Source of the DNA: Candidatus Pelagibacter sp.
Lineage (GTDB): Bacteria; Pseudomonadota; Alphaproteobacteria; Pelagibacterales; Pelagibacteraceae
Reading direction: 5' to 3'
Length of the DNA stretch: 21,785 nucleotides
Assembly (NCBI GenBank): GCA_013204495.1
Contig: JABMNQ010000187.1
Span: forward strand, 1 to 21,785
Below, piece by piece: positions 5,822-19,752 of the stretch (positions are counted from its first letter, which is position 1; every line of letters starts with the position of its first letter). The position numbers were made by a program, and so were the translations under genes. The notes beneath the pieces are model-generated. The model worked only from the letters and a program-made list of their open reading frames with translations. It had not been told where the DNA came from and searched no databases.

Positions 5822-6925
5822 ATGGATGATGTTGTAATAATCGGAGGAGGTATTATTGGAGTAGCAACTGCTTATTTTTTATCTAAAGAAGGTCGAAAAG
5901 TTAAAGTTATCGAGAAAGACCCAACATATAAAGAGGCTTCATTTCCATTGTCATTAGGTGGTTTTAGAAGACAATTTTTTCAAAAAGAAAATATATTACT
6001 AGGAAAATTTGCAAGAGATTTTATTTTTCAAATACCTGAATTACTTAAAACTAAAATAAATCCAAATCCCACTGCTAGTATAGTTCCAAATGGTTACTTG
6101 TTAATGTTTGGGCCTGAACATGCAGAGCAACAATATAGAGCCTTGGAAAATCATAAAGAGTGTGATGCTGGAACAAAAAATATTAAAGGATCAGAGTTAT
6201 CCAAAATTTTCCCTTATATTAATGACGAAGGTATAGAAACTGCTACATATACAGATGATAAGAGTGAGGGTTGGATTGACCCTTTTATGTTTCATAGCGC
6301 TTTAAAAAGTAAGGCAACAGAACTTGGAGCTGAATTTATTAAGGGAGAGGTAAAAGATATATCGGAAATTAATGCTAATATAATTATCTCTGCGGCAGGC
6401 TGCTGGACTAAAAAAATATTGAATGATATTCCTGTTGTTCCTCAAAAACACACTGTTTTTAGAGTTAAATGCCCAACATATATATCGGAAATGCCTTTAT
6501 CAGCCGATTTAACAACTGGTGTTTATTGGAGACCAGAGGGTAAAGAGTATTTAGCTGGTTCTCCAAAGTCTACTTTTGACGCAACAAATCTTGAACCTGC
6601 CTGGGATGACTTCGAAGAGTTGGTATGGCCCGCACTTGCAAAAAGAATTCCAATGTTTGAAGAGCTCAAATTAACGGGTGCTTGGGCAGGATTTTATGAT
6701 CATAACCAACTAGACAGCAATGCTATTGTTGGTAAGCACCCTAAATATGAAAATGTATATATGGCTTCGGGTTTCACAGGAAGAGGATTGCAGCAAGCAC
6801 CTGGCATTGGTAGGGCTTTAACAGAGCTTATAACAACAGGCTCTTATCAAACTATAGATGTAAGTGCCTTTAATGTTGAAAGAATATTTAGCAAAGAAGC
6901 TAGACCAGAACCTTACGTATTATAA
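5822..6925 (+). CDS. FAD-dependent oxidoreductase, DadA/FOXRED1-like (DAO family)
   Basis: A 367-residue flavoprotein of the D-amino acid oxidase/sarcosine oxidase superfamily (COG0665). The Rossmann motif is VVIIGGGIIGVATAYFLSKEG (residues 4-24), with a Glu ending strand 2 (VIEKD). SLGGFRRQFFQKENILLGKF (about 44-63) closely follows the pattern I remember for FOXRED1-like proteins. The C-terminus has MASGFTGRGLQQAPGIGRALTEL, the conserved FAD-binding block. Superfamily members oxidise secondary or tertiary amines such as sarcosine, dimethylglycine or proline, or D-amino acids. The substrate here cannot be fixed from sequence. Glycine-, sarcosine- and formate-related genes in the window make an N-methylated amino acid attractive, but this is inference. 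It is 2 bases downstream of tspO and convergent with selO. Confidence 0.85.
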   Translation: MDDVVIIGGGIIGVATAYFLSKEGRKVKVIEKDPTYKEASFPLSLGGFRRQFFQKENILLGKFARDFIFQIPELLKTKINPNPTASIVPNGYLLMFGPEHAEQQYRALENHKECDAGTKNIKGSELSKIFPYINDEGIETATYTDDKSEGWIDPFMFHSALKSKATELGAEFIKGEVKDISEINANIIISAAGCWTKKILNDIPVVPQKHTVFRVKCPTYISEMPLSADLTTGVYWRPEGKEYLAGSPKSTFDATNLEPAWDDFEELVWPALAKRIPMFEELKLTGAWAGFYDHNQLDSNAIVGKHPKYENVYMASGFTGRGLQQAPGIGRALTELITTGSYQTIDVSAFNVERIFSKEARPEPYVL

Positions 6926-8389: not shown

Positions 8390-11158
8390 TTAGTTAACTT
8401 CAGCCTGGTTTTCTTTTTGTTTGATTTCAGTTTTAAATTGATTTGATATTTTTTGAACTTCAACAGCTGTTACTTTGTATTCAGCACACATTGTTTCTTC
8501 ATCCTTACCATGGCCCGTTACCATGTTAACCATGTGTTCTGGAAAATGAAAAGTTGTAAATACTATTCCTTCTTTTACTTTGTCGGTAACTTCCACTTTT
8601 AAAGCAACTTCTCCTCGTCCAGAATAAAGTCTTCCTATGTCACCTGTATTTAACTCTCTTTTGTTGGCATCATTTGGGTGAACTAATAATAAGTCTTCAG
8701 AAACTATATTTATATTACTGGTACGCCTTGTCATAGTAGCAGCATTATAGTGTTGTAAAACTCTACTTGTTGTTAAAATTAATGGGTATTCTTTTTTATT
8801 AGTTTCAATTTCTGTAGATTCTTTCCAGTCAAAATTTTTCAGACGTCCTTTTCCAATTTTAAAAGTTTCTTTATGTAAAATTTGAGTATCTGTTCCATCC
8901 TCCAGAACTGGCCATTGTAATCCCATTTTACCAAGTCTTTCTCTTGTTACCCCTTTAAAGAAAGGAACGACATCTGCTATCTCTGCTAGAACTTGATCAG
9001 CGTCATATGTTGGTTGATCAAAACCTAATTTTTGCATCATATCTGTTACAATCATTCCATCAGTTTTAGTGCCCGGCAAAGGAGGTACGGCTCGATTAAC
9101 CCTTTGAATTCTTCTTTCGGTATTTGTAAAAGTTCCATCTTTTTCTAAAAATGTTGTTCCGGGTAATACTACAGTTGCAAGTTTTGCAGTCTCACTCATA
9201 AAAATTTCTTGAACCACCAATAATTCTAATGAGTTCATTGCCCGAACAACATGTGCACTATTTGGATCTGTTTGAACAATGTCTTCCCCAATAATCCAGA
9301 CCGCTTTAATATCTTTATTAATAGCTCCATCAAACATTTCTGGAATTTTTAATCCTGCTTTTGTTGGGTGAACTACTCCATATTTTTCTGTATAAAAATT
9401 TTGATTTTTTTCGTCTGCAACTTCAAAGTAACCAGCACCTTGATGAGGTTGGCATCCCATATCGGCAGCACCTTGTACATTATTTTGTCCTCTTAGTGGG
9501 TTAACACCAACACCTCTTCTGCCAATATTACCTGTGATCATTGCAAGGTCAGCAATCAGCATTACTGTTTTTGATCCTTGTTCTTGTTCTGTAACTCCTA
9601 AACCATGGAATTCCATTGAATTTTTAGCTGTTGCATAAGCTATAGCAGCCTCTTTAACCATTTGTTTATCAACACCAGCAACTTTAGCTAGGTGGTCCAT
9701 ATCCTGTCTTTCAATTTCTTTAATGAAATTTGCAAAACCTTCAGTTCTATCTCTAACAAAATCCTTATCGTAAAGATTTGCTTTCATTATAAAATGTAAC
9801 ATCATGTTTAAAACAGCCACATTTGTTCCGGGTCTAAGTTTAATATGGTAATCAGCAAGTTGCGCTAGTTCTGTAGTGATTGGATCAAGAACTATTAGTT
9901 TTTTACCCTTCATTACTTGTTGTTTTATTTTTGCCCCAGTAACTGGGTGAGCATTTGTTGGATTTGCTCCAATTACCATAAATAAATCTGCATGATAAAT
10001 ATCTTCTGTAGAGTTAGTGGCAGCTCCAGTTCCAAAAGTTTGTTGCATTCCCCAAGCTGTAGGTGAGTGACAAATTCTTGCACAACAATCGATATTGTTA
10101 GTTCCGATTGCAGCTCTAATCATTTTTTGGAATACATAATTTTCTTCATTAGTACATCTTGCTGAAGAAATACCAGCAACTGCATCTGGGCCACTTTCTT
10201 TAGTTATTCTGTTCAATTCTTTCTTAATAAAATCATAAGCCTCATCCCATGAAGCTTCTTCAAATTTTCCATTTCTTTTTATTAAAGGAGTTTTTAATCT
10301 GTCTGGATGATCATAAAATCCAAATGCATACCTTCCTTTAATACAAGTGTGGCCAGCATTGACTTCAGTTTCTTTAGGTGTGGATATTGCAACTACTTTA
10401 TTGTCTTTAATTGATGCCTCTAAGTTACATCCAACTCCACAATAGGAACAAGTTGTTCTAACTTTTTCATCTACTGCTACAGATTTTGATTGGAAAACAT
10501 CTGAGATAGCATCTGTTGGACATGTATGGGCGCAAGCACCACAAGATACACAAGAGGAGTCTCCGAATAAAGCATCATTGTCAGTTGTTATTTTAGATTC
10601 AAATCCTCTACCACTCATTGTTAAAACAAATGACCCTTGAATTTCATCACACGCACGAACACATCTTCCACAATTAATACAATTATCTAAATTCATTCTC
10701 ATATAATCATGAGAAGTGTCTTTTGTAATACCCTTGTGTTGTTTTGGACTATTATATCTATGATCAGTTATACCTAAATCATTAGCAACATCTTGAAGCT
10801 CACAATTATTATTAACCTCACAAGTTCCACATTCCATTGGGTGGTCTGTTAAAACTAGTTCTACTATATTTTTTCTTAATTCTGTTAAGCTTTCATTATT
10901 TGTAAAAATATATTGATTCTCAGAAACTGGCGTATGACATGATGCTACAACTTTAGTTGGGCCATCTTTAACTAAGGCAACCTCTACAGAACAAACTCTA
11001 CAAGCACCATAAGGAGCTAAATTTGGATCATCACACAATGTCGGGACTTTTTTATCCCCCAGGTAACTTTTTACAAAGCTTAAAACAGAGGTATGGTTTG
11101 GGCCAATTTCATATGGCTTACCATCTATGTGTGCAATTTTTCTTTTTTCAGAACTCAT
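8390..11158 (-). CDS. fdhF: NAD-dependent formate dehydrogenase, alpha (Mo-bis-MGD) subunit
   Basis: A 922-residue catalytic subunit that oxidises formate to CO2 at a molybdenum (or tungsten) bis-MGD site. Domains in order: NuoG-like [2Fe-2S] domain (C42, C53, C56, C74); His-Cys cluster (H106, C110, C113, C119); two [4Fe-4S] clusters (C160/163/166/170 and C203/206/209/213); molybdopterin domain with its own cluster (C237, C240, C244, C272) and K274. The active site reads CARICHSPTAWG, giving C363 as metal ligand with H364. This is the cysteine, not the selenocysteine, form. The dinucleotide-binding C-terminal domain covers about 790-900. This layout matches soluble FdsA / Methylobacterium FDH1-alpha enzymes. 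Respiratory NuoG lacks the CARxCHS site. The start overlaps the beta-subunit stop by one base (TAATG), indicating coupled translation. Confidence 0.95.
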   Translation of the reverse strand: MSSEKRKIAHIDGKPYEIGPNHTSVLSFVKSYLGDKKVPTLCDDPNLAPYGACRVCSVEVALVKDGPTKVVASCHTPVSENQYIFTNNESLTELRKNIVELVLTDHPMECGTCEVNNNCELQDVANDLGITDHRYNSPKQHKGITKDTSHDYMRMNLDNCINCGRCVRACDEIQGSFVLTMSGRGFESKITTDNDALFGDSSCVSCGACAHTCPTDAISDVFQSKSVAVDEKVRTTCSYCGVGCNLEASIKDNKVVAISTPKETEVNAGHTCIKGRYAFGFYDHPDRLKTPLIKRNGKFEEASWDEAYDFIKKELNRITKESGPDAVAGISSARCTNEENYVFQKMIRAAIGTNNIDCCARICHSPTAWGMQQTFGTGAATNSTEDIYHADLFMVIGANPTNAHPVTGAKIKQQVMKGKKLIVLDPITTELAQLADYHIKLRPGTNVAVLNMMLHFIMKANLYDKDFVRDRTEGFANFIKEIERQDMDHLAKVAGVDKQMVKEAAIAYATAKNSMEFHGLGVTEQEQGSKTVMLIADLAMITGNIGRRGVGVNPLRGQNNVQGAADMGCQPHQGAGYFEVADEKNQNFYTEKYGVVHPTKAGLKIPEMFDGAINKDIKAVWIIGEDIVQTDPNSAHVVRAMNSLELLVVQEIFMSETAKLATVVLPGTTFLEKDGTFTNTERRIQRVNRAVPPLPGTKTDGMIVTDMMQKLGFDQPTYDADQVLAEIADVVPFFKGVTRERLGKMGLQWPVLEDGTDTQILHKETFKIGKGRLKNFDWKESTEIETNKKEYPLILTTSRVLQHYNAATMTRRTSNINIVSEDLLLVHPNDANKRELNTGDIGRLYSGRGEVALKVEVTDKVKEGIVFTTFHFPEHMVNMVTGHGKDEETMCAEYKVTAVEVQKISNQFKTEIKQKENQAEVN

Positions 11159-16502: not shown

Positions 16503-17408
16503 ATGATTGAATTAAAAAATGAAAAAATTGCTATTCCTGTTGTTTTATTAGCCGGTCTCATCTGGTCTTTTGGCCCCTTGGTTGTAAGATATATGGATCA
16601 ACCCAATTTAGTTCCTTGGCAGTATATTTTTACAAGAGGCCTAACAATTTTTTTAGTATTGAATCTTTATCTTTTTTTTGATGAAGGCAAAGATTTTTAT
16701 AAAAATTATTTAAAAATTGGAATTTCAGGTGTTATTGGTGGAACTGGACTTGGTATTGCTATGATAACGTTTATTTATTCAATAACCAATACAAGTGCAG
16801 CAGTGACGTTACTTTGTTTGGCTGCAATGCCATTTTTTACTGCATTATTAGGATTTTTATTTTTAAAAGAAAAAATTTCATTAAATGTTTGGACAGCAAT
16901 TATAATTGCAACTATCGGAATAATAATTATCGCGTTTGGCAATACTGAAAAAAACTCTTTGTTAGGACTTATTTTTGGTATGACTTCCTCAGTTGGTTTT
17001 TCTGTTTTTTCAGTTACGCTAAGATGGAAAAAAGAAACACCAAAATTTACAACAGTAGCTTTTTCAGGTTTCTTTTGTTTTACTGTTGCTTCAATTGTTA
17101 TCTTAAGTAACGATATGTCATTTTTATCTTCAAGTTATAATGGTGCCTTATTTTCTATACACGGTACATTAGTTTGTATAGGACTAATCTTGTATTCAAT
17201 TGGCTCGAAAGCCATACCAGCAGCAGAACTTACCTTGTTATCGCTAACTGAAGTTATAGGAGGTATATTTTGGGTTTGGATTCCAATTTTAGGCATTAAT
17301 GAAATACCTTCAACAAATACTATAATAGGAGGCTTTTTCCTATTTATGTCTATTATTTATTATAGCCTTACAATTAAAACTAATAGAAGATTCATAGCAT
17401 TAAATTAG
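16503..17408 (+). CDS. DMT superfamily (EamA) transporter
   Basis: A 301-residue membrane protein with about ten hydrophobic segments in two repeated halves, the EamA layout. Family landmarks are AGLIWSFGPLVVRYM at helix 1, TNTSAAVTLLCLAAMPFFTALLGFLFLKEKIS closing the first half, and AAELTLLSLTEVIGGIFWVWIPILGINE in the second half. EamA proteins move amino acids, metabolites or nucleotide sugars, usually by proton antiport, and substrate cannot be read from sequence. A 48-base AT-rich gap separates it from moeA, so it may start a new transcript. It ends 10 bases before the creatinase gene, and its TAG stop overlaps the Shine-Dalgarno site of that gene, implying co-expression. Transport of a guanidino compound or product is only a hypothesis. 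Confidence 0.9.
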   Translation: MIELKNEKIAIPVVLLAGLIWSFGPLVVRYMDQPNLVPWQYIFTRGLTIFLVLNLYLFFDEGKDFYKNYLKIGISGVIGGTGLGIAMITFIYSITNTSAAVTLLCLAAMPFFTALLGFLFLKEKISLNVWTAIIIATIGIIIIAFGNTEKNSLLGLIFGMTSSVGFSVFSVTLRWKKETPKFTTVAFSGFFCFTVASIVILSNDMSFLSSSYNGALFSIHGTLVCIGLILYSIGSKAIPAAELTLLSLTEVIGGIFWVWIPILGINEIPSTNTIIGGFFLFMSIIYYSLTIKTNRRFIALN

Positions 17409-17418: not shown

Positions 17419-18636
17419 ATGCAAAGGCCAGATTTTTTTACACTACACAATGGTGATAAAGCAAAACTTCCATTCTCAGATAAAGAATACCAAACTAGAG
17501 TTGACAGCTTAAGAGAGGTAATGAGTAAAAATAATCTGGATATGATTATTTTAACTTCTATGCATAACATTGCTTATTATACAGGATTTATTTATTGTTC
17601 ATTTGGAAGACCTTTTGGATGTGTTGTAACAGAGAATAAAATTTCTACAATTTCTGCCAACATCGATGCCAGTCAACCTTGGAGAAGATCTCATACTGAT
17701 AATGTAATTTATACTGACTGGAAAAGAGATAATTTTTTAAAAGCCATAGTTTCTATAATTGGTAGAGATGAACCACCAAAAAATATTGGAATTGAAAATG
17801 ATCATGTAACCGTTGATGTAAAAGAAAAACTCACCTCTATTTTTATATTTTCATCTTTTAGTGATGTATCTAATGACTTGATGAATCTTAGAATGATCAA
17901 ATCGAATGAAGAAATAGAGATAATTAAAAATGGTGCTAGAATTGCTGATTTAGGTGGTGAAGAGATTGTTAAAAATATTAGAGTAGGCGAAAGTGAACTT
18001 GAAATTGCAATAGCTGGTAGAGATAGAATGGAACGTGAAATTGCAAAAACATATCCAGATGCAGAATATATGGATACTTGGGTTTGGTTTCAGTCAGGTC
18101 TAAACACCGATGGTGCACATAACCCAAAAACAAATAGAAAGTTAAAATCAGGTGATATTTTATCTTTAAACACTTTTCCAATGATCTCAGGTTATTATAC
18201 AGCGCTTGAGAGAACTTTATTTGTTAATGAGATAGATGATGCCTCTCTAAAGGCATGGGAGGCCAATGTAAAAGTACATAAAAAAGGCTTAGAGTTAATT
18301 AAGCCAGGAATTAAATGTTCTGACATTTGTCACGAGTTAAATGAATTATTTGCTGAACTTGGTTACTTGCAATATAGAACATTTGGTTATGGGCATTCTT
18401 TTGGAGTGTTGTCACATTTTTATGGAAGAGAAGCAGGGTTAGAACTTCGTGAAGATATAGATACTGTATTGGAGGAAAACATGGTTATTTCTATGGAGCC
18501 AATGATTATGATACCTGAAGGAAAACCTGGTGCTGGAGGTTATAGAGAGCATGATATTTTAGTTATAGGAAAAAATAGCGCTGAAAACATTACTAAGTTT
18601 CCTTTTGGTCCAGAACATAATATTATAAAATCATAA
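17419..18636 (+). CDS. Creatinase (creatine amidinohydrolase), M24 pita-bread fold
   Basis: A 405-residue creatinase, which hydrolyses creatine to sarcosine and urea; Pseudomonas creatinase has about 404 residues. From memory of that protein, long blocks agree: YCSFGRPF (59-66, with the carboxylate-binding F62 and R64), SANIDASQPWRR, DTWVWFQSGLNTDGAHNP (219-236, catalytic H234), GYYTALERTLF (258-268, E264), YRTFGYGHSFG, YGREAGLELREDIDTVLE (R337), MVISMEPMIMIPEG (E360) and GGYREHDIL (H378). Positions that bind metal in M24 peptidases are not Asp (SLNTFP, YYTALERT), which fits the metal-free creatinases and argues against an Xaa-Pro peptidase. The gene is followed 3 bases later by an amidinotransferase gene. 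Guanidinoacetate or another guanidino acid cannot be excluded as substrate. Confidence 0.9.
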   Translation: MQRPDFFTLHNGDKAKLPFSDKEYQTRVDSLREVMSKNNLDMIILTSMHNIAYYTGFIYCSFGRPFGCVVTENKISTISANIDASQPWRRSHTDNVIYTDWKRDNFLKAIVSIIGRDEPPKNIGIENDHVTVDVKEKLTSIFIFSSFSDVSNDLMNLRMIKSNEEIEIIKNGARIADLGGEEIVKNIRVGESELEIAIAGRDRMEREIAKTYPDAEYMDTWVWFQSGLNTDGAHNPKTNRKLKSGDILSLNTFPMISGYYTALERTLFVNEIDDASLKAWEANVKVHKKGLELIKPGIKCSDICHELNELFAELGYLQYRTFGYGHSFGVLSHFYGREAGLELREDIDTVLEENMVISMEPMIMIPEGKPGAGGYREHDILVIGKNSAENITKFPFGPEHNIIKS

Positions 18637-18639
18637 AGT

Positions 18640-19752
18640 ATGATTGAAAAAACTGTAGTTAGTAGCTGGAATGAATGGGATCCTCTAAAACATGTAATTG
18701 TTGGTAAGGCTGATGGCACTTGTATTCCTGCACCAGAACCAGCATTAGACGCAAAGGTACCAGAAGACTCTGATATGAGAGGTCAATTTGGACCAAGAAC
18801 TAAAGATACAGTTGATAAAGCAAACCAACTATTAGATGATTTTTCAAGAATGCTTGAAAAAAGAGGCATTAGGGTAGATAGACCAGACCCAATAGATTTT
18901 AATCAAAAAATTTCAACACCGGATTGGCAAGCAGAAACAATGTTTGGATGTATGCCACCGCGAGACGTTTTATTAACAGTGGGTAGTGAAATTTTAGAGG
19001 CTACGATGAGTTATAGATGTAGATGGTTTGAGTATTTATGCTACAGGCCTTTACTAAAAAAATATTATGATGAAGATCCTAATATGAGACATGAGTCTGC
19101 ACCAAAACCAAGATTAACAGATGCAGACTATAGAAAAGATTATCTGTCAGACAAAATTGGTATTCAAAAAAGATTAGAATGGACAGAAGATAAATTTTTT
19201 GTAACAACGGAAGAAGAGCCATTATTTGATGCAGCAGATGTTTTAAGATTTGGTAAAGATTTAGTTGTGCAGCATGGATTTACCACAAACCTTAAAGGAA
19301 TAGATTGGCTCAGAAGACATTTTAAAGATCATAGAGTGCATGCAGTAAATTTTCCAGGTGACCCTTATCCAATTCATATAGATGCAACATTTACTCCAAT
19401 TAAAGAAGGTTTAATTATTAATAACCCTCAAAGAAGACTTCCAAAAGAACAAAGAAAACTTTTTGAAAATAATGGATGGGAAATTATTGATTCAGCTCAA
19501 CCTGCGCACAATCAACCACCACCGCTATGCTATTCATCAACATGGCTATCAATGAATGTATTAGTTTTAGACCCTAAAACAGTATGTGTTGAAAAAAGTG
19601 AAGTTTACCAAGCTGAACAATTAGATAAATTAGGAATGGAAGTAATTCCAGTCTCTCTTAGAGATGCTTATGCATTTGGTGGAGGACTTCATTGTTGTAC
19701 AGCAGATGTTTACCGTGAAGGTGAGCTAAAAGATTATTTTCCAAAACAATAG
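18640..19752 (+). CDS. Arginine:glycine amidinotransferase-like enzyme
   Basis: A 370-residue amidinotransferase closely resembling vertebrate AGAT/GATM over its whole length. Such enzymes move the amidino group of arginine to an amine through a thiouronium on cysteine. Visible are SSWNEWDPLKHVIVGKADG (8-26), RPDPIDF (81-87), PRDVLLTVGSEILEATM (107-123), FVTTEEEPLFDAAD (187-200, catalytic Asp region), PIHIDATF (244-251, H246), SSTWLSMNVLVLD (299-311) and GGGLHCCTADV (347-357, nucleophile C352). Where human AGAT has HCWTCD, this protein has HCCTAD, so a second cysteine follows the nucleophile. The acceptor amine (glycine, lysine, a diamine or other) cannot be read directly; similarity favours glycine. 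It is wedged between creatinase (3-base gap) and threonine aldolase (2-base gap), a glycine-centred context. Confidence 0.9.
   Translation: MIEKTVVSSWNEWDPLKHVIVGKADGTCIPAPEPALDAKVPEDSDMRGQFGPRTKDTVDKANQLLDDFSRMLEKRGIRVDRPDPIDFNQKISTPDWQAETMFGCMPPRDVLLTVGSEILEATMSYRCRWFEYLCYRPLLKKYYDEDPNMRHESAPKPRLTDADYRKDYLSDKIGIQKRLEWTEDKFFVTTEEEPLFDAADVLRFGKDLVVQHGFTTNLKGIDWLRRHFKDHRVHAVNFPGDPYPIHIDATFTPIKEGLIINNPQRRLPKEQRKLFENNGWEIIDSAQPAHNQPPPLCYSSTWLSMNVLVLDPKTVCVEKSEVYQAEQLDKLGMEVIPVSLRDAYAFGGGLHCCTADVYREGELKDYFPKQ

Follow-up and report, generated by a model that had tools for sequence, protein, structure and literature searches.

Creatinase and an AGAT-type amidinotransferase encoded side by side in Candidatus Pelagibacter: a possible module for the scavenging of guanidino acids

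Creatinases degrade creatine, and the L-arginine:glycine amidinotransferase (AGAT) is known for opening two biosynthetic routes, to creatine in vertebrates and to cylindrospermopsin. Why, then, are members of both families encoded 3 bases apart in the SAR11 bacterium Candidatus Pelagibacter sp.? The pair lies in positions 1 to 21,785 of contig JABMNQ010000187.1 (assembly GCA_013204495.1), a stretch of 21,785 nucleotides that was analyzed as a whole and is called the window below. In an earlier note on this DNA, two options had been proposed, an arginase bypass or a reversed amidinotransferase acting next to a creatinase that uses creatine. The answer favored here, tentatively as far as its full form is concerned, is a scavenging module for guanidino acids that includes the salvage of guanidinoacetate with ornithine. 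The paired genes are as follows:

17419..18636, plus strand: creatinase (creatine amidinohydrolase, M24 fold), 405 amino acids; 7yto/1chm, about 530 bits
18637..18639, plus strand: 3-base spacer between the creatinase stop and the AGAT start
18640..19752, plus strand: AGAT-type amidinotransferase, 370 amino acids; 1jdx/1jdw, 294 bits; catalytic D197, H246 and C352

In such a module, imported creatine would be cleaved by the creatinase to sarcosine and urea, and the sarcosine would be converted to glycine by sarcosine-oxidizing enzymes, for which dehydrogenase and oxidase genes have been listed in SAR11 (PMC3160333). The AGAT-type enzyme would act mainly in the salvage direction and convert guanidinoacetate (or a close relative) and ornithine to glycine and arginine, with no nitrogen lost as urea. 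Human AGAT and CyrA accept guanidinoacetate as amidine donor (PMC4887976). Both routes would supply glycine, for which SAR11 needs a source (PMC8437039), and the AGAT route alone would retain the guanidino nitrogen. Creatine is N-methylated and may be beyond the reach of a transamidinase; the creatinase would take care of it. The salvage direction is judged to be just on the probable side, and the same holds for guanidinoacetate as the AGAT substrate.

The creatinase was found to match solved creatine amidinohydrolases over nearly its full length (7yto, 531 bits; 1chm, 528; 1kp0, 499), and the next M24 enzyme scored 94 bits. Its residues F62, R64, H234, E264, R337 and E360, which we take to be equivalent to F62, R64, H232, E262, R335 and E358 of the Pseudomonas putida enzyme, are all kept and are invariant across 48 aligned creatinases including its own. 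The earlier description of an intact creatinase, which had named all of these except R337, was thus borne out. Since no feature separates the enzyme from the creatinases of AGAT-less genomes, creatine is taken as the default substrate and is very probably the true one. A search of 20 SAR11 genomes, that of the window (86% complete) included, gave no creatininase (PF02633), a gene that the earlier note had not seen in the window either.

The closest solved match of the downstream enzyme was L-arginine:glycine amidinotransferase (1jdx/1jdw, presumably the human enzyme) with 294 bits and 44% identity. The human residues D170, D254, H303, D305, R322, S354, S355 and C407 are kept as D109, D197, H246, D248, R265, S299, S300 and C352. 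We take Asp170 to be catalytic as well, and D305, R322, S354 and S355 to be arginine-binding positions. The triad itself is Asp254-His303-Cys407 (PMC3684758), so that the Cys, His and Asp motifs noted before could be confirmed for the frame at 18640-19752. In the 300-flap, the sequence D241-P-Y-P-I245 was found, compared to D-P-N-P-M in the human enzyme, D-I-F-P-S in CyrA and D-M-H-P-M in AmtA (PMC4887976); the human-type N300 and M302 are thus replaced by Y243 and I245. The flap does not settle the acceptor, because CyrA, which departs there with F and S and carries an aromatic residue at the matching position, uses glycine, whereas AmtA does not (PMC4887976, PMC3684758). The enzyme is named AGAT-type rather than AGAT in the strict sense, since glycine is a putative acceptor. 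Several public records label this family 'serine/threonine protein kinase', apparently a misannotation. On contig 11 of another genome (G031, L121), where two 399-codon frames adjoin each other, the AGAT-like match shares only about 31% identity with the window AGAT.

The pairing was found to recur. In a set of 61 genomes, made up of the window genome and 60 relatives, AGAT was identified in 50 and creatinase, with a presence threshold of E<=1e-60, in 13. All 13 carry AGAT, and the two genes are adjacent in 12; in the remaining genome (G039), the creatinase is on a different contig from AGAT. Of 385 genomes surveyed in the class, eight reached the threshold of E<=1e-100 for this AGAT subfamily. 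Two further genomes had distant AGATs alone (38% identity), and one of these also bears a creatinase. Creatinase was present in seven of the eight and in 38 of the 377 others (Fisher p 1.4e-6), a value that overstates independence because the seven genomes represent three lineages. In the alphaproteobacterial family f110, which is unrelated to SAR11 and might be SAR116-like, AGAT was found in 14 of 61 genomes. Creatinase was searched for in all of these and, among the 47 others, in 23 that were picked mostly for completeness; it was identified in 10 and 5 genomes, respectively (p 0.005). In nine of the ten f110 genomes having both, the genes adjoin, divergently in genus g234 (7) and convergently in genus g285 (2). 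Together with the tandem order in SAR11, three arrangements are known, and the adjacency, whose conservation the earlier note had left to a neighborhood check, extends well past one genome.

In the creatinase tree, the SAR11 sequences, the linked g234 sequences and the linked g285 sequences take three separate, well-supported positions, and creatinases from genomes without this AGAT fall between them. The f110 AGATs form one clade beside the AGATs of SAR11 family f1. The simplest reading of these trees is that the pair was assembled three separate times; alternatively, a single early pairing may have been followed by exchange of the creatinase. Recurrence with creatinases of three lineages in three arrangements is one of the reasons for the favored reading.

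The second line of evidence is an enzyme swap in two SAR11 operons that are otherwise conserved around the exchanged enzyme (L118/L187 and L120/L232, L234, L235). The first operon (L118, genome G004) encodes a BHMT-like protein, a DMGDH-like protein, a relative of the window AGAT termed AGATb, a methyltransferase, a Rieske oxygenase and a DddP-like protein. The first two names were derived from Pfam domains, and the M24 gene was named DddP-like for its similarity to the solved structures 4b28 and 4rzy, which we presume to be so named. In L187 (G034), a ureohydrolase occupies the AGATb slot, and the shared flanking genes, six when the small gene after the DddP-like gene is counted, are 77-92% identical; G004 has an extra 146-codon frame ahead of the DddP-like gene. 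In the second operon (L120, G025), AGATb heads genes for an EamA protein, a 2-oxoglutarate oxygenase, a luciferase-like protein and a thiamine pyrophosphate enzyme. In L232, L234 and L235 (G022, G023 and G024), a divergent ureohydrolase precedes the corresponding genes (71-91% identity). In G022 and G024, an additional EamA or further frames are inserted, and one more locus, in G030, is truncated behind EamA. Compared across the two contexts, the ureohydrolases are 85-88% alike, the metal motifs GGDHS and DAHTD are kept in all five sequences checked, and the L187 enzyme is closest to 3-guanidinopropionase.

Two unrelated guanidino enzymes in the same slot suggest the same net job, the removal of an amidino group from a guanidino acid. 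With more reserve, it is conceivable that SAR11-type AGATs as a whole are catabolic transamidinases, which would pass the amidino group to ornithine and keep both nitrogens as arginine, with creatinase covering creatine. Such use would suit a nitrogen-limited cell, which in SAR11 is mostly urease-free.

A third reason is the presence of glycine and serine genes next to AGAT: serC followed by serA downstream of AGAT in G348 (family f82, L150), the DMGDH-like and BHMT-like genes of L118 (AGATb) and a threonine-aldolase-like gene in the window. Other contexts are an MTTB gene with a GcvT-like gene (L147) and a DegT-type pyridoxal phosphate (PLP) enzyme (L148) in f110, an ectoine-catabolism-like cluster in family f142 (L151), and a flavin adenine dinucleotide (FAD) monooxygenase with an amino-acid-type ATP-binding cassette (ABC) transporter in SAR11 family f2 (nine loci). 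Glycine/serine and methylated-amine metabolism thus recurs around AGAT, though not universally. In L151 (G221), a 61% identical AGAT relative leads the cluster, which is of hydroxyectoine/ectoine type (EutB-like, under the cut-off; OCD family; M20; M24). Near the creatinase of f110 genomes, or near that of genus-mates (L190, L191, L192 and L193), a ureohydrolase, an ABC transporter that by eye is spermidine/putrescine-like, M24 enzymes related to ectoine hydrolase (under the cut-off) and a diaminopropionate ammonia-lyase-like gene were observed, which may mark a larger island for guanidino compounds or osmolytes.

In the window, the pair belongs to a five-gene run on the plus strand at the window end, with gaps of 10, 3, 2 and 11 bases. 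Its flanking transporter and aldolase genes were absent from the earlier note. The other genes of the run and a more distant candidate are:

16503..17408, plus strand: EamA-family (drug/metabolite) transporter; PF00892, 65 bits
19755..20807, plus strand: PLP-dependent L-threonine-aldolase-like enzyme, 350 amino acids; PF01212; L-threonine aldolase structure, 354 bits
20819..21595, plus strand: MOSC-domain protein
5822..6925: FAD-dependent oxidoreductase, DAO family; 88-bit match to a solved sarcosine oxidase chain

The EamA protein would move a substrate or a product of the module, and the threonine-aldolase-like enzyme, which scores under the NCBIfam cut-offs, would be a third source of glycine. 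The oxidoreductase at 5822-6925 could process sarcosine made by the creatinase. A sarcosine oxidase chain is its sole solved match at E<=1e-15, and among the matches listed every NCBIfam model is under its cut-off. A guanidinoacetate methyltransferase, reported before as absent from the window, was not found among the scanned open reading frames; the statement holds for these, since the 922-amino-acid frame at 8390-11158 and short antisense frames were unscanned and no genome-wide search was made. The lone methyltransferase-domain protein among the scanned frames is of the cyclopropane-fatty-acid-synthase type, and the neighbors of AGAT are EamA, creatinase, aldolase and MOSC, without the adjacent guanidinoacetate methyltransferase expected of creatine biosynthesis. 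A promoter and terminator scan gave a signal no better than shuffled sequence, and when the window and five loci were searched, neither a glycine riboswitch nor another known RNA exceeded its gathering score. The window genome (G000, the window being its contig C180) comprises 1.22 Mb in 197 contigs and is 86% complete.

Of 589 named loci, the best 80, which are hence near relatives of the window, served to analyze the conservation of this run: they are titled Pelagibacter, Pelagibacteraceae or Pelagibacterales, and one Alphaproteobacteria. EamA was located within 3 kb upstream of AGAT in all 67 loci with more than 2.5 kb of upstream flank. Directly before AGAT, creatinase was found in 44 of these and EamA in 22; in the remaining one (L103, 6275-8000), a 572-codon frame, TPR-sulfotransferase-like by eye, lies between creatinase and AGAT. 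The aldolase was found within 300 bases downstream of AGAT in 53 of 73 loci with sufficient flank. EamA and AGAT thus form the conserved unit in near relatives, and the creatinase slot is optional. The counts among the 61 SAR11 genomes (50 with AGAT, 13 with creatinase), many of which are incomplete, likewise imply that AGAT functions without creatinase, which is an optional extra. Neither gene was found in G158 and G435, two near-complete genomes from another genus of the same family. Carriage by phages was considered and rejected, as viral contigs gave no creatinase and, for AGAT, only three distant relatives with 23-30% identity; matched plasmid records (Photobacterium, Streptomyces) are unannotated at the match site.

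Several findings weigh against the scavenging reading. The flap residues Y243 and I245 depart from human AGAT. AGATb is a sister clade with 75% identity, in which human S354 is replaced by Tyr and G404 by Ser, and the window orthologue itself takes no part in the swap. The swap cases are few (one versus one; one versus three plus one truncated locus), the ureohydrolase of the second operon is divergent and not in line, and five of six SAR11 genomes with the swap ureohydrolase also carry a window-type AGAT elsewhere. Creatinase was not detected in 37 of the 50 AGAT genomes, and the co-occurrence is weak when the 61 SAR11 genomes are taken alone (creatinase in 13 of 50 with AGAT versus 0 of 11 without; Fisher p 0.10). 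In G348, G426, G363 and G039, the two genes are on separate contigs. In g285, an agmatinase/guanidinobutyrase-like ureohydrolase is present near AGAT and creatinase. No guanidinoacetate uptake system was identified. The urea-saving rationale is weakened by the urease of the window's own genome. Among the f1 genomes with creatinase, urease was found in just 2 of 14, so that creatinase would waste urea nitrogen in the others, and 13 of the 14 f110 AGAT genomes have it, so that urea avoidance is not a general reason for the pairing.

Urease was detected in 3 of the 39 SAR11 genomes of family f1, the window's own included. A link between urease and creatinase in this family was considered and discarded (2 of 14 creatinase-bearing genomes versus 1 of 25 others). 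The urease alpha gene of the window genome (L185, contig C172) is accompanied, by eye, by other ure genes and by upstream purine/ureide degradation genes. HTCC1062 and HTCC7211 are described as lacking urease, and agmatine inhibited nitrogen-limited growth of SAR11, for which the authors suggest a build-up of urea (PMC8437039).

The best surviving alternative keeps the scavenging and changes the substrate of AGAT to 3-guanidinopropionate, 4-guanidinobutyrate or taurocyamine, which would yield beta-alanine, gamma-aminobutyrate or taurine together with arginine. The replaced N300 (Y) and M302 (I), positions that influence which substrates human AGAT and CyrA accept, would fit it, as would the interchangeable ureohydrolase closest to 3-guanidinopropionase. 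It is nevertheless considered unlikely, since D305, R322, S354 and S355 are unchanged in the window AGAT, glycine/serine genes are recurring neighbors, and CyrA, in which the corresponding flap position is also aromatic, uses glycine.

Nearly as well placed, though also unlikely, is a synthetic AGAT that would turn arginine into guanidinoacetate or some other guanidino compound for export by EamA, the creatinase being a separate creatine-use gene inserted in the operon. Characterized EamA proteins are often exporters. The constant upstream EamA (67 of 67 testable loci), the different EamA that follows AGATb in L120 and the optional creatinase slot all agree with this proposal. It leaves unexplained, however, why creatinase stands beside AGAT in other lineages and why a ureohydrolase stands in the place of AGATb, and synthesis for export would probably be costly for a nitrogen-limited, streamlined cell.

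The arginase bypass, the first option of the earlier note, is improbable. Here AGAT would convert arginine and glycine to ornithine and guanidinoacetate, and the creatinase would split the latter into glycine and urea. The adjacency of the two genes fits, and so do the SAR11 ureohydrolases of L184 (window genome) and L186 (G012, standing for the second copy of the window genome), which score above the agmatinase cut-offs and under the arginase cut-off. The bypass requires an altered creatinase specificity, whereas 47 other creatinases carry the same residues at the checked positions; the 37 AGAT genomes without detected creatinase, some of them incomplete assemblies, speak against it, as does the lack of any ornithine cyclodeaminase above the cut-off in 47 SAR11 genomes (7 gave weaker matches). 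In addition, the published SAR11 polyamine map includes an arginase, speB1 (PMC8437039). The 293-amino-acid ureohydrolase of many creatinase-bearing SAR11 was examined as a guanidinoacetase and rejected: its L186 copy is above the agmatinase cut-off. A simple pattern search recovered one of three metal motifs in L186, which adjoins what are presumably two polyamine genes, judged from their sequence starts.

Least probable of all is accidental synteny in a variable region: the creatinase does move singly, as its 89% identical copy on another contig of G039 and the separate contigs of G363, G348 and G426 illustrate, but three arrangements with three creatinase lineages and the co-occurrence in two surveys argue against chance.

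The scavenging module therefore remains the preferred reading. The reversed amidinotransferase with creatine use, as first suggested, agrees with the data better than the bypass, mainly owing to the sister-operon swap; guanidinoacetate, ornithine and creatine would be its substrates. That the locus encodes a guanidino-compound pathway is likely, given the intact enzymes and the recurrent adjacency. If correct, creatine, guanidinoacetate and other phosphagen-type metabolites would be repositioned in the nitrogen and glycine economy of the ocean, a common SAR11 gene labeled as a protein kinase in some databases would obtain a function, and a catabolic, nitrogen-saving AGAT would occur in very abundant marine bacteria.

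The use of creatine by SAR11 creatinase is already published: the enzyme is listed as a SAR11 gene cluster in Red Sea metagenomes, where the creatine-to-glycine enzymes are all reported to be enriched (Thompson et al., 2013; PMC3686209), and creatine use has been proposed for AEGEAN169 (PMC11366302). The window shares the creatinase of this route; an amidinotransferase is not part of it in the main text of PMC3686209, which contains neither 'amidino' nor 'arginine', and the main text of the cited Sun et al. (2011; PMC3160333) does not contain 'creatin'. The pairing and the swap appear undescribed in the literature searched, most subscription journals lying outside it. Both enzyme families are known; what is probably new is that an AGAT-type enzyme would be used catabolically and to save nitrogen.

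Compared to P. putida creatinase (1chm), the window enzyme is the same in its near full-length match of about 530 bits and in all checked active-site residues. The setting differs, as the SAR11 genomes searched lack creatininase and urease is rare in f1. With human AGAT and cyanobacterial CyrA/AoaA, the AGAT-type enzyme shares the family, the Cys-His-Asp set and the arginine-binding residues; it differs from the human enzyme in sequence (44% identity) and flap (D-P-Y-P-I) and in a role that is likely catabolic instead of biosynthetic. SxtG, HsvA and the inosamine-phosphate amidinotransferase (StrB-type) belong to the same superfamily, the solved ones scoring 224, 209 and 179 bits and thus under human AGAT, and so does AmtA (PMC4887976); the natural-product settings of these four were not seen in the window. 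Finally, the 3-guanidinopropionase/guanidinobutyrase-type ureohydrolases occupy the AGATb place in two SAR11 operons and differ from AGAT in their unrelated fold (PF00491) and in the acceptor, which is water and not ornithine, so that urea is released.

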